Source: Candidatus Binatia bacterium
GTDB taxonomy: Bacteria > Vulcanimicrobiota > Vulcanimicrobiia > Vulcanimicrobiales > Vulcanimicrobiaceae
Direction: 5' to 3'
Assembly: GCA_035544215.1 (NCBI GenBank)
Contig: DATKHY010000003.1
Location: 1 to 64,000, forward strand
Length of the DNA stretch: 64,000 nt
A program made the position numbers and the translations under genes. Positions 48,340 through 52,473 of the stretch are shown piece by piece; the first letter of the stretch is position 1; each line of letters opens with the position of its first letter. The notes under the pieces were generated by a model that saw nothing but the letters and a program-made list of their open reading frames with translations, did no database searches and was not told the origin of the DNA.

Positions 48340-49014
48340 TTAGGGACGCTGCGAAAGAAACGCGGTGTAACCCTCAAGGGCGATTTGCACGCCGATGCAG
48401 AGCAAGATGAACGCCGAAAGCCGCAGCAATACGTTGACGCCAGTTGGCCCCAGCTTTCGTAAGACGTGTTCCCCTTGGCTGTAGCAGAGATAGATCACTG
48501 TGGAGATGCACGCGAGGCCCACCAAGGCGCCGAGGCCATCGAGTAGGACTGAGCCTCCCGGAGCGGCGAGCAAACTGCTGCCGACGGTCACCATGATCGC
48601 GATGGATCCCGGGCCGATCGTTAACGGCAACGTTAGCGGGTAGAACGCGCCGCCGAGCACTTCATCTTGAGTAGCGGCCGGCGCGCGATGTTTCGAGTCT
48701 TCCTGCCCCTGGCTGAGCAGGCGCCAACCCGCACTGGCGAGGACGAGGCCTCCGGCGACACGCACCGCCGAGAGGCTTAAACCGAAGAACTTCAGCGCCA
48801 GCGGACCGACGATCAAGGACGCAGCCGTGAGAATGAAGGCGTTGATCGCGACGCGCCGCGCGAGGCTTCTCGCAACGGCGTCGTCAAGGGACTCCGTATA
48901 GTTCAAGAAAATGGGTGCCATGCCCGGCGGATTGACGATCGGGAACAGGGCCAGCGTTACTAAGAGAAAACCCTGGACAAACGGCCACGCGGCCACGGTC
49001 CTAAGTGAGTCCAC
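48340..49014 (-). CDS. MarC-family integral membrane protein
   Basis: This encodes 224 residues, GTG start. Six helices and the family pattern FLLVTLALFPIVNPPGMAPI near the N-terminus, VRVAGGLVLASAGWRLL in the middle, and LPLTIGPGSIAIMVTVGSSL in the second half. MarC (UPF0056) proteins are multi-pass inner-membrane proteins whose transport function is not established. It is divergent from the 2H-phosphoesterase operon. Confidence 0.9.
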   Translation of the reverse strand: MDSLRTVAAWPFVQGFLLVTLALFPIVNPPGMAPIFLNYTESLDDAVARSLARRVAINAFILTAASLIVGPLALKFFGLSLSAVRVAGGLVLASAGWRLLSQGQEDSKHRAPAATQDEVLGGAFYPLTLPLTIGPGSIAIMVTVGSSLLAAPGGSVLLDGLGALVGLACISTVIYLCYSQGEHVLRKLGPTGVNVLLRLSAFILLCIGVQIALEGYTAFLSQRP

Positions 49015-49152: not shown

Positions 49153-49866
49153 ATGAGAAACGTCGCGACTTTGGTCGCTTGCATGCTCTGTCTGGCGCCT
49201 GGAATCGGCAGGTCTCAAGCGCCCGATCTGCCCTCCGTTACGGCCATCGATATTGCGCTGGAACCGGATGCAACGATGATGGAGCATGCGAATGCCTTGA
49301 ACGCTCGCCTACGTCAGTCATTTCCCAAAGGATACGCGCTAGATGCGACGCATCATCCGCACATAACGATGCTGCAACGATACGTCCGCACAGCGGACCT
49401 GCCGAAGATCTACGCAGCGGTCCGGAAGATCAGAACGGAATACAATGTGGGCGCCTGGAACTTCGAAGCGTTCAAAATTGACCACGCGGTCTGGAGCGGG
49501 CTAGCTGTCACGGTCATCCTCGCCAAACCTCCGCGAAGCGTCCTAGAGGCGCAGCAGAGACTCATCGATGCGATTGCGCCCTATACAGTTCAGATTGGAA
49601 CGGCGGCCGCGTTCGCGACGACCCCTGCCGAGCCGGACATCAACGCCTCCACGATTGCGTATGTCACGGCGTTCGTTCCAAAATCGACTGGGAAGAACTA
49701 CATCGCGCACGTCACCTGCGGCGTTGCTTCCGTGGCATTCGTTAAGCAGCTAGAAGCGGAACCATTTTCCTCGTTTACGTTCTCACCGGTAGCCATATCC
49801 GTGTACCAGCTCGGAAACTTCGGTACCGCGCGCAAGAAGCTCGAGGCCTGGAGCTTTGCACCATGA
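49153..49866 (+). CDS. Exported 2H-phosphoesterase-like protein
   Basis: The 237-residue product begins with a signal peptide (VATLVACMLCLAPGIGRSQA). The two HxT/S motifs that define the 2H (LigT/2'-5' RNA ligase-like) superfamily are present: HPHITML (His70, Thr72) and IAHVTCG (His186, Thr188). The body is clearly homologous to the next gene product, which lacks the signal. GGAGG-like site precedes the ATG. 2H enzymes open or form 2',3'-cyclic or 2'-5' phosphodiester bonds; a periplasmic version is unusual. Its stop overlaps the next start (ATGA). Confidence 0.75.
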   Translation: MRNVATLVACMLCLAPGIGRSQAPDLPSVTAIDIALEPDATMMEHANALNARLRQSFPKGYALDATHHPHITMLQRYVRTADLPKIYAAVRKIRTEYNVGAWNFEAFKIDHAVWSGLAVTVILAKPPRSVLEAQQRLIDAIAPYTVQIGTAAAFATTPAEPDINASTIAYVTAFVPKSTGKNYIAHVTCGVASVAFVKQLEAEPFSSFTFSPVAISVYQLGNFGTARKKLEAWSFAP

Positions 49867-50510
49867 ACGATACGATGGTCGCGATCGACATCGCAATCGA
49901 GCCCGGCGAACCCATGGTTAAGCGCTCCCTAGCCGACAACGCCAAACTTCTCGAAAACTTCCCCCAGGGTTACTCTCTCGACAAGACGCATCACGCGCAC
50001 ATATCAATCTTGCAACGCTTCGTCCGCGAGACCGACCTCGAAAAGGTGTATACAGCGATCGCACATGCCGTCGCTTCGGAAAACCCGAGCGCGTGGACGC
50101 TCGCAGCGAGCAAGTACTACTATATTCCCGCGGGTCCGATTGGACTCGCGGGTATCGTCGTCGAGGTAACGGACGACCTGTTGAGGTTTCAACAGAGGCT
50201 TATCGACGCGGTGACTCCCTTCTCGATCGCTACCGCGACGGCAGACGCGTTCTTCAAGCTGCCAGCCGAGCCTGCGCTACACGAGGTACCAACGATGATT
50301 GAGTACGTCGGAAGGTTCGTCCCAGACCATTCCGGGAAAAACTTTATGCCGCACGTCACCATCGGCGTCGGGCTGAAAAGCTACCTGGAGGAGATGCTCG
50401 CCGCACCCTTCGAGGCGTTCACGTTCACCGCCGTAGGCGCTTCGGTTTATCAACTCGGCGACTTCGGCACCGCCCGCAAGAACCTCAAGACCCTGGAGTT
50501 CAAACCATGA
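49863..50510 (+). CDS. Cytoplasmic 2H-phosphoesterase-like protein
   Basis: This 215-residue protein has no signal peptide. 2H motifs: HAHISIL (His46, Ser48) and MPHVTIG (His164, Thr166). It shares VAIDIAIEPG-type start, QRLIDAVTPF and VYQLGDFGTARKNL with the exported paralogue at 49153, so the pair arose by tandem duplication, with one copy gaining or losing export. ATGA overlaps occur at both ends with its neighbours, indicating tight translational coupling in a three-gene operon. Substrate unknown. Confidence 0.78.
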   Translation: MNDTMVAIDIAIEPGEPMVKRSLADNAKLLENFPQGYSLDKTHHAHISILQRFVRETDLEKVYTAIAHAVASENPSAWTLAASKYYYIPAGPIGLAGIVVEVTDDLLRFQQRLIDAVTPFSIATATADAFFKLPAEPALHEVPTMIEYVGRFVPDHSGKNFMPHVTIGVGLKSYLEEMLAAPFEAFTFTAVGASVYQLGDFGTARKNLKTLEFKP

Positions 50511-51451
50511 CCGACCCGCTGCCGTCGTGGAACGATGGTCCGGCCAAAGCAGCCATCCTGGACTTCATTCGGAAGACGACTGACCCGGCGGGCGCAGAGT
50601 TCGTTCCCGAAAAGGACCGTATCGCGACGTTCGATCAGGATGGCACGACGTGGGTCGAGCACCCGATGTACACGCAACTTGCGTTTACTCTGGCTCGGCT
50701 CGCCGACCTAGCGCCGCAGCATCCCGAATGGAAAACCACCGAGCCGTTCAAATCCACGCTTGCCGGCGATATGGCGGCGTTTGCGAAATTCACGATGAGC
50801 GATTTAGAAACCCTCGTGGCGGCTTCGCACGCAGGAATGAGTACGGACGCCTTTCGAGGGATCGTCGTCGACTGGATGGGGAAGGCCAAGCATCCCCGCT
50901 GGGGCCGCCCCTACACCGACCTCGTCTATCAACCCATGCTCGAAGTCATGCGGTACCTGCAGGCCAACGGCTTCAAGAACTACATCGTGACGGGTGGTGG
51001 CCAAGCCTTCGTGCGAGCCTATGCCGAGCGCGTGTACGGCATGATGCCGGAGCGCGTCATCGGATCGTCCCTGGAAACACAGTTCGAATACGATGCCAAT
51101 GGCAATGCCGTCCTCATGCGCCCGCCGAAATTGTTGCTTTACAACGATCTGTCGGGTAAGCCACAAGACATCTATCTGTTCCTCGGGCGTCCGCCGCTTG
51201 CCGCGTTCGGCAATAGTACGGGGGACCAGCAGATGCTCGAATATACGCAGTCCGGCGGGGGAGCGCGACTGACGGCCCTCGTCCTACACGACGATGCGGC
51301 ACGTGAGTACGATTATGGACCGGAAAGCCCGCAATCCGACACGAAATTCGGAGCTTTCACGCAAGCACTGGCGGACACGGCCAAGGCAAAAGGCTGGGTT
51401 GTCGCAAGCATGAAGAATGACTGGAGGCGGATCTTCGCGTTCGAGGCCTAG
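50507..51451 (+). CDS. HAD-superfamily phosphatase (phosphoserine phosphatase-like)
   Basis: The 314-residue protein has the HAD motifs in order: DxD in ATFDQDGTTW (Asp43, Asp45), the Thr/Ser motif in NYIVTGGG, and the acidic motif in AAFGNSTGDQQML. A helical cap lies between motif I and II. No signal peptide. The enzyme should dephosphorylate a small substrate in the cytoplasm. Its start overlaps the 2H gene by four bases, linking the two activities. It is convergent with the propeller gene at 51460. Confidence 0.85.
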   Translation: MTDPLPSWNDGPAKAAILDFIRKTTDPAGAEFVPEKDRIATFDQDGTTWVEHPMYTQLAFTLARLADLAPQHPEWKTTEPFKSTLAGDMAAFAKFTMSDLETLVAASHAGMSTDAFRGIVVDWMGKAKHPRWGRPYTDLVYQPMLEVMRYLQANGFKNYIVTGGGQAFVRAYAERVYGMMPERVIGSSLETQFEYDANGNAVLMRPPKLLLYNDLSGKPQDIYLFLGRPPLAAFGNSTGDQQMLEYTQSGGGARLTALVLHDDAAREYDYGPESPQSDTKFGAFTQALADTAKAKGWVVASMKNDWRRIFAFEA

Positions 51452-51459
51452 GAGAGCCG

Positions 51460-52473
51460 CTATGTCTTCGCTGCCGTCACGCCGAGCGGGAGATCGAAGC
51501 TGCCCGTAAATGTAGCAATCGGTGAACCGCCGGCGGGGTATCTGAAAACCTCGCCGTCGCCATTTCCCGCGTCGCCGCAATACAGCAGGCCCTTAACGAT
51601 CCACGTCTGCGCGCAGTCGCTAGCCCCGGAGAGCTGTACGGTGTTCTTCAACGTCGCCGTCGTTCCGCTAACCGTGTAGCGATATGTCGCACTCGCGTAC
51701 TGATCGAACACAGTGAGGTAGGTACCGTCCCACTGCACCGAGCCAGGAAATTGCGGAGAGTTACTCGTTTTGATCGTAACGAATTTGCTGCTGCCCTTCG
51801 GAAGCTCGACGAGTGCGAAGTTAGAGCTCGAGCCGAAACCGTCGGCGAAGAGATTGCCGCTGGGATCGTAGCCGTTGAAGTATTCTTTGGACAGCGGTGT
51901 ATTGTATACCTTACCCGAGCCGGTCGCGTTCTTGAAGATCACAACCTGACCGCCGGGACCGTAAGAATTACCCAAAAGGATTCCGACTGCGAGATCGCCG
52001 CTAGCATTCATCGCGCAGCTGGATGTGAACGTGTAGTTAAGAGACAGCGTCTTGATCAGCTTGTTTGGAACCTTGTATTCGCTAATCAGGTCGTTCGTAC
52101 GCCCGGGGTTCCAGATAATGTTCTTCCCATAGCCGTACAAAACGTTGGTGCACCCTTGGCCGCCGGCGCCATTAATCTGACCAATCATCGCGGTGCTTTT
52201 TGGATAGTTGAAAATGCTGGCGTACGAGCCGTAGTAGTTGATGATGTACTCGTACTTCGTTAACTCCGATCTATCCGGTACGAGCTCTGCGTAACGCGGC
52301 AGTGGATTCAGCCTCTCCGCCGCCACGGGCCTCCCATTCACGAACAGCGTCCTACCTACGTAGGTCGCAGTCAACGGAGCGGCTGACGGCGTGACCGTCG
52401 AGCTCCCGCACGCCGAAAGAATTACGAGTGCAACGACAGCGCCGGCGCACTTAAGAAAACCATGGATGATCAT
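51460..52473 (-). CDS. Beta-propeller lipoprotein (subfamily A)
   Basis: The 337-residue product has lipobox ILSAC (Cys22). Blade motifs match the proteins at 435, 4703 and 19975: YDPSGNLFADGFGSSSNFAL, VELPKGSSKF, SVQWDGTYLTVFD, VSGTTATLKNTVQLSG and FRYPAGGSPIATFTG. It is a member of the same family located far from the cassettes and without an adjacent regulator. Only 8 bases separate its stop from the convergent HAD gene stop. Confidence 0.86.
   Translation of the reverse strand: MIIHGFLKCAGAVVALVILSACGSSTVTPSAAPLTATYVGRTLFVNGRPVAAERLNPLPRYAELVPDRSELTKYEYIINYYGSYASIFNYPKSTAMIGQINGAGGQGCTNVLYGYGKNIIWNPGRTNDLISEYKVPNKLIKTLSLNYTFTSSCAMNASGDLAVGILLGNSYGPGGQVVIFKNATGSGKVYNTPLSKEYFNGYDPSGNLFADGFGSSSNFALVELPKGSSKFVTIKTSNSPQFPGSVQWDGTYLTVFDQYASATYRYTVSGTTATLKNTVQLSGASDCAQTWIVKGLLYCGDAGNGDGEVFRYPAGGSPIATFTGSFDLPLGVTAAKT

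Follow-up and report, generated by a model that had tools for sequence, protein, structure and literature searches.

In the Appr>p pathway of eukaryotic tRNA splicing, a 2H cyclic phosphodiesterase opens the cyclic phosphate and a macro-domain phosphatase acts after it; neither fusion nor export is known from this pathway. Some 2H enzymes act on ADP-ribose cyclic phosphate (PMC9503650), and in the 2H enzyme LigT the catalytic motifs are borne on the two equivalent strands (PMC5283653). Outside the cell, the periplasmic enzyme CpdB serves as both 2',3'-cyclic nucleotide phosphodiesterase and 3'-nucleotidase (PMC4905662), opening a cyclic nucleotide and then removing the phosphate with a single metallophosphoesterase of the 5'-nucleotidase family.

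Here we describe an operon, P1-P2-P3, from the window (the analysed stretch of 64,000 nucleotides of a Vulcanimicrobiaceae genome), whose predicted reactions share the logic of the Appr>p pathway and whose proposed overall task resembles that of CpdB, but which uses two unrelated domains, 2H and HAD, the latter replaced in some relatives by PhoN. Specifically, P1, P2, and P3 have no match to CpdB-type domains (metallophosphoesterase, PF02872), and the 5'-nucleotidase C domain (PF02872) is absent from the whole window genome, which hence has no CpdB or UshA. PhoN/PhoC, a class A nonspecific acid phosphatase (PAP2), forms the N-terminal half of four fusions with 2H domains of this family, whereas the matched PhoN/PhoC structures (217-274 aa) have no 2H domain. 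The superfamilies are known, and we found no description of their arrangement in the literature: a search for the HAD-2H fusion or the sulfatase-HAD-2H set returned no paper, a mention in the founding 2H classification (Mazumder 2002) being possible.

Operon architecture

The first-pass annotation had proposed three genes chained by four-base overlaps. The open reading frames bear this out: P1, P2, and P3 all lie on the plus strand (Table 1), and both junctions are ATGA overlaps (P1/P2 at 49863-49866, P2/P3 at 50507-50510). The flanking genes lie on the minus strand, one of the MarC family at 48340-49014 and the other, lipoprotein-like, at 51460-52473, so that P1-P2-P3 form one closed operon. 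The lipoprotein-like gene has no Pfam match; a homologue directly adjoins a 2H gene in the genome G007 (L003:2242-3258), in the opposite relative orientation.

Export was predicted here and throughout by a hydrophobicity heuristic, not SignalP. By this measure the N-terminus of P1 is signal-peptide-like (MRNVATLVACMLCLAPGIGRSQA) and no signal peptide is present in P2 or P3, which also lack any extension at the N-terminus, in line with the annotation's assignment of a signal peptide to the first gene alone. A lipoprotein nature of P1, for which LVAC (residues 7-10) might be read, was ruled out, the motif being too near the N-terminus.

Table 1. Features of the P1-P2-P3 operon, in window coordinates
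Feature	Position	Strand	Size or basis
GGAGG, Shine-Dalgarno-like, 8 nt ahead of P1	49140..49144	+	sequence
P1, predicted exported, divergent 2H phosphoesterase	49153..49866	+	237 aa; ORF, fold, sub-threshold PF13563
P1 signal-peptide-like N-terminus, residues 1-23	49153..49221	+	hydrophobicity heuristic
P1 putative catalytic motif 1, H70-I-T72	49360..49368	+	H invariant in 31 sequences
P1 putative catalytic motif 2, H186-V-T188	49708..49716	+	H invariant in 31 sequences
P2, predicted 2H phosphoesterase without signal peptide	49863..50510	+	215 aa; 43% identity to P1, tree
P2 putative catalytic motif 1, H46-I-S48	49998..50006	+	sequence; H invariant in 31 sequences
P2 putative catalytic motif 2, H164-V-T166	50352..50360	+	sequence; H invariant in 31 sequences
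P3, predicted HAD phosphatase without signal peptide	50507..51451	+	314 aa; PF12710 above cut-off, 4ovy E 1e-90
P3 HAD motif I, D43-Q-D45-G-T47 (nucleophile and acid/base Asp)	50633..50647	+	aligns with DNDGT of 4ovy and 18 fusions
P3 HAD motif IV region, G235-NSTG-D240	51209..51226	+	aligns with GNSDGD of 4ovy, GNSxGD of fusions

Motifs and fold of the three proteins

The assignment of P1 and P2 to the 2H phosphoesterase superfamily is supported by motif and fold, and phosphoesterase activity is predicted on that footing, as the annotation had proposed. Both carry the two expected HxT/S motifs. Their PF13563 scores (18.2 bits for P1, 24.2 bits for P2) are below the cut-off of 27, which the relative at L031 passes with 27.1 bits, and 30 of the 31 family members match the profile at E < 0.01. 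An AlphaFold model of P1 built from 31 sequences (pLDDT 89.3, pTM 0.84) places the His motifs at the starts of two equivalent strands (71-79 and 185-193), the counterparts of those that bear the catalytic residues of LigT (PMC5283653). Every significant Foldseek match to this model (E < 0.001) is a 2H-type enzyme, and VIA-align yields Z scores of 15.0 with YjcG, 14.2 with drCPDase, 13.6 with Arabidopsis CPDase, and 13.2 with E. coli LigT.

The family thus has the bilobal fold of ThpR/LigT, YjcG, and plant cyclic phosphodiesterase (PF13563/PF02834), with two HxT/S motifs at equivalent strands, but structural sequence identity to these enzymes is only 11-17%. Unlike them, it has conserved HxxHhT..Q and YYYxP..G..GIVV signatures and is mostly exported and coupled to a phosphatase. 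Arg130, the phosphate-binding residue of LigT (PMC5283653), seemingly has no counterpart at equal spacing past motif 2, where P1 has V191. No NCBIfam ThpR hit was obtained, and an hhalign comparison of the family profile with E. coli ThpR gave a probability of 0.8%, the relationship being visible from the fold alone. Elsewhere, at C1:86369, the window genome encodes a further PF13563 protein, which is above the cut-off and of the ThpR/LigT type; that protein could be a candidate for an RNA role.

The third gene, annotated as a HAD phosphatase, proved to fit that description. P3 scores 32.1 bits against the HAD profile PF12710 (cut-off 27), is HAD-IB like, and has intact DxDGT and GNSxGD motifs. 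The closest solved structure, 4ovy, aligns over the full length (E 1e-90). It is a full-length homologue of P3 as well as of the HAD portion of the fusions; we found no paper on its function.

Linkage of 2H domains to phosphatases across bacteria

A scan with the 2H alignment, in which 84,980 species were represented by one genome each, yielded 64 loci, 63 of them with a usable 2H gene call; since only 2H patterns were used, the search was unbiased toward HAD. A link to HAD, by fusion or adjacent gene, is present in 38 of the 63 loci found in this way by 2H sequence alone. In particular, 19 loci (counting the chimera L068 described below) encode HAD and 2H in a single ORF, with examples in Pseudomonas syringae (L073), Planctomycetes (L086), Acidobacteria (L076), and Omnitrophota (L058); 16 have an adjacent HAD gene on the same strand; and 3 have a divergent adjacent HAD gene, two of these being a remnant or chimera. 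HAD is farther off in 2 loci, and no HAD gene lies within the visible stretch of 19, partly owing to contig ends. Four further loci (L061, L062, L063, L069) encode fusions of 2H to a class A acid phosphatase of the PhoN type. A Streptomyces plasmid carries a distant 2H gene (36% identity), annotated as "hypothetical protein", 13 bp downstream of a HAD gene. Among 41 genomes comprising that of the window and its relatives, HAD is present in 8/8 with 2H (one a remnant) versus 4/33 without, p=5e-6, or 1e-4 with the remnant not counted, values that are optimistic because the genomes are related.

The order 2H-2H-HAD was seen in the window only, and is absent from the other genomes of the phylum that were searched and from the 63 other loci. 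The neighbourhood search called for in the annotation gave a divided answer: the exact three-gene make-up is real here and specific to this genome, and it is the 2H-HAD link that recurs. The proposed coupling of a 2H enzyme to a phosphatase draws strong support from the natural fusions, in which this 2H domain is joined either to HAD or to an acid phosphatase unrelated to HAD; the occurrence of two unrelated phosphatases on one domain argues strongly that the product of the 2H domain is the substrate of the phosphatase. In the tree, a single clade of PhoN-fused 2H domains is rejected (AU p=8e-5), with four changes counted, so that phosphatases were swapped more than once or domains recombined; the PhoN halves are 67-84% identical. 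A model of a HAD-2H fusion (pLDDT 65.9) was too poor for active-site placement and was left unused, and the position of the L030 HAD in the HAD tree was disregarded, as its ORF looks frameshifted.

Predicted export of the two partners co-varies. In the 19 loci with separate 2H and HAD genes, both proteins are predicted to be exported in 12 and neither in 6, with 1 mixed (18/19 in agreement; Fisher p=2.6e-4, likewise optimistic because the loci are related); export at L043 and L046 was judged visually. Because the whole 2H-HAD pair is exported in most relatives, the cytoplasmic pair of the window is the less common state.

P1 and P2 belong to different 2H lineages

P1 and P2 are 43% identical. 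A tree that joins the two, as expected from tandem duplication, is rejected (AU p=0.0016; the branches are long, that of P1 among them). P2 clusters (support 99/95) with alphaproteobacterial 2H genes that are cytoplasmic and likewise lie ahead of a HAD gene, and P1 with the exported solitary 2H of G109, a relative within the family, and with one from Methylomicrobium. The P1-like relative in G109 also has a signal-peptide-like N-terminus. P1 deviates at 13 of 66 positions conserved at >=90%, mostly in the KYYYIP..G..GIVV segment, which is altered in the G109 relative too. No exported or second P3-family HAD was found in the window genome; five PAP2 proteins are encoded elsewhere in it. Given the changed segment and the lack of a second P3-family HAD, the substrate or partner of P1 may differ from that of P2. 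The reading of P1 as a simple exported copy of P2 is thus not supported, given its lineage, the loss of a near-invariant segment, and the lack of an exported P3-family HAD among those found in the genome.

Association with formylglycine sulfatases

A sulfatase (PF00884), mostly with the CTAGR formylglycine motif, is encoded at 29 of the 63 2H loci, and at 11 loci it lies directly upstream of a HAD-2H fusion. Genes for formylglycine-generating enzyme (FGE) or anaerobic sulfatase maturase are present at 11 of the 63. The window genome also has a sulfatase gene (C3:82095-83576, 56%, no signal peptide) and an FGE gene (C3:72275-73159), 31 kb and 21 kb beyond the operon, respectively, on the same contig. 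The association favours a set of enzymes that scavenges esters of phosphate and sulfate. Because so many loci carry a formylglycine sulfatase, the substrate is possibly not a nucleotide.

In rhizobia (S. meliloti, R. leguminosarum), a sulfatase is paired with a P3-family HAD and no 2H gene is adjacent. On Sinorhizobium and Rhizobium plasmids (L127:4164-10267, L128:4156-9274), the gene that comes after the arylsulfatase-HAD pair is for a cytochrome c3 or a tetratricopeptide protein. Members of a multihaem-like gene family are also repeatedly present in the vicinity of L035, L078, and L085.

Proposed mechanism and alternatives

Computation shows the genes with their motifs and folds, the fusions, the recurrence, and the joint variation of export signals, and from these we infer the catalytic activity, step order, substrate, and nutritional role of the 2H-HAD pair. 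On balance we think it probable that the 2H enzyme opens a cyclic phosphodiester and the phosphatase frees the phosphate, a predicted activity that would accomplish a CpdB-like task with unrelated enzymes. By analogy with 2H chemistry (PMC5283653), hydrolysis to a monoester by the 2H domain is the most likely first reaction, and release of phosphate by HAD or PhoN the most likely second. In the window, P2 and P3 would form a cytoplasmic two-step pair, in which P2 would hydrolyse a cyclic phosphodiester and P3 would then dephosphorylate the resulting phosphomonoester to yield free phosphate. The substrate is most likely the 2',3'-cyclic phosphate of a nucleoside or oligonucleotide, which P2 would convert to the 2'-phosphate. 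P1, encoded upstream in the operon as a predicted exported relative of a different 2H lineage, may act on an external substrate; a shift in its specificity is probable, and any partner it has would be another exported phosphatase. Across bacteria, the 2H protein would mostly be an exported unit beside or fused with HAD or a class A acid phosphatase, often behind a formylglycine sulfatase, in a set that looks like nutrient scavenging.

Nucleotide scavenging leaves the frequent sulfatase partner unexplained, and the frequent occurrence of P3-family HAD beside sulfatase without any 2H, as in rhizobia, speaks against the preferred reading, as do the 19 of 63 2H loci with no HAD in the visible stretch and the seeming lack of a counterpart to LigT Arg130. 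The module might instead degrade a non-nucleotide compound bearing sulfate and (cyclic) phosphate esters, with sulfatase, HAD, and 2H each removing or opening one group. The sulfatase and maturation genes at the 2H loci, the rhizobial pairs, and the sulfatase and FGE genes on the operon's own contig all point this way; we nevertheless consider it rather unlikely, as sulfatase and 2H-HAD also occur separately, independent phosphorus and sulfur scavenging enzymes could merely be co-regulated, and no known compound that fits was identified. A broader scheme, which we put forward tentatively as falling short of probable, is that widespread exported bifunctional HAD-2H or PhoN-2H proteins, together with formylglycine sulfatases, strip phosphate and sulfate from an environmental cyclic-phosphodiester compound, the phosphatase half having been repeatedly exchanged, and that the window genome has a cytoplasmic pair plus an extra exported 2H of changed specificity.

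The absence of signal peptides from P2 and P3, and the healing of 2',3'-cyclic phosphate RNA ends by known 2H enzymes (PMC9503650, PMC5283653), would suit a role of the cytoplasmic pair in repairing or clearing RNA ends or 2',3'-cyclic nucleotides from RNA turnover, with P1 incidental. Such a role is distinctly improbable, since the window genome already has a separate above-cut-off PF13563 protein, relatives of the P2-P3 pair are mostly exported, and neither an RNA ligase nor an RNA-repair gene was seen among the recurrent neighbours. Structural matches to P1 include penguinpox cGAMP phosphodiesterase and phage Acb1, and the 2H proteins could accordingly be imagined as phosphodiesterases against cyclic oligonucleotide signals. 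We regard this as very improbable indeed: the 2H proteins are mostly exported and fused to phosphatases, defence genes were not seen among the recurrent neighbours, and 50,697 phage records hold zero matches, on which ground a phage or defence origin of the family is rejected.

For the two-step cyclic-phosphodiester reading that we prefer, the fusions to two unrelated phosphatases constitute a direct, testable prediction. They also point to a scavenging route that would run parallel to CpdB in Pseudomonas, rhizobia, Planctomycetes, Acidobacteria, and Eremiobacterota (Vulcanimicrobiota). In the records whose annotation was checked, the 2H gene bears no label other than "hypothetical protein", and surveys of how organic phosphorus and sulfur are turned over may therefore overlook the pathway.

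Variant loci

Several loci depart from the common arrangements. In Pseudomonas reinekei (L068:5137-6630), a single ORF joins a sulfatase N-terminus (signal peptide, CTAGR), the C-terminal part of a HAD without nucleophile motif, and a full 2H domain, and is a natural deletion chimera of neighbouring genes, counted among the 19 fusions. A likely deletion chimera in Eremiobacterota (L092:4865-5788) combines a phospholipase C-like part with a HAD C-terminal part and adjoins a truncated 2H. The 2H gene at L007/L010 (G008:C13:4684-5257) is split across two frames, as a pseudogene or through sequencing error. At L052, L065, and L113 (Eremiobacterota, Variovorax), a 2H without signal peptide is beside or near a phospholipase C-like gene, and two of these loci have a second, CTPxR-type sulfatase. 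In G031 (L114:5331-7366), two P3-family HAD genes stand in tandem and overlap by 4 bp; the product of the second may be exported, and an anaerobic sulfatase maturase gene follows.
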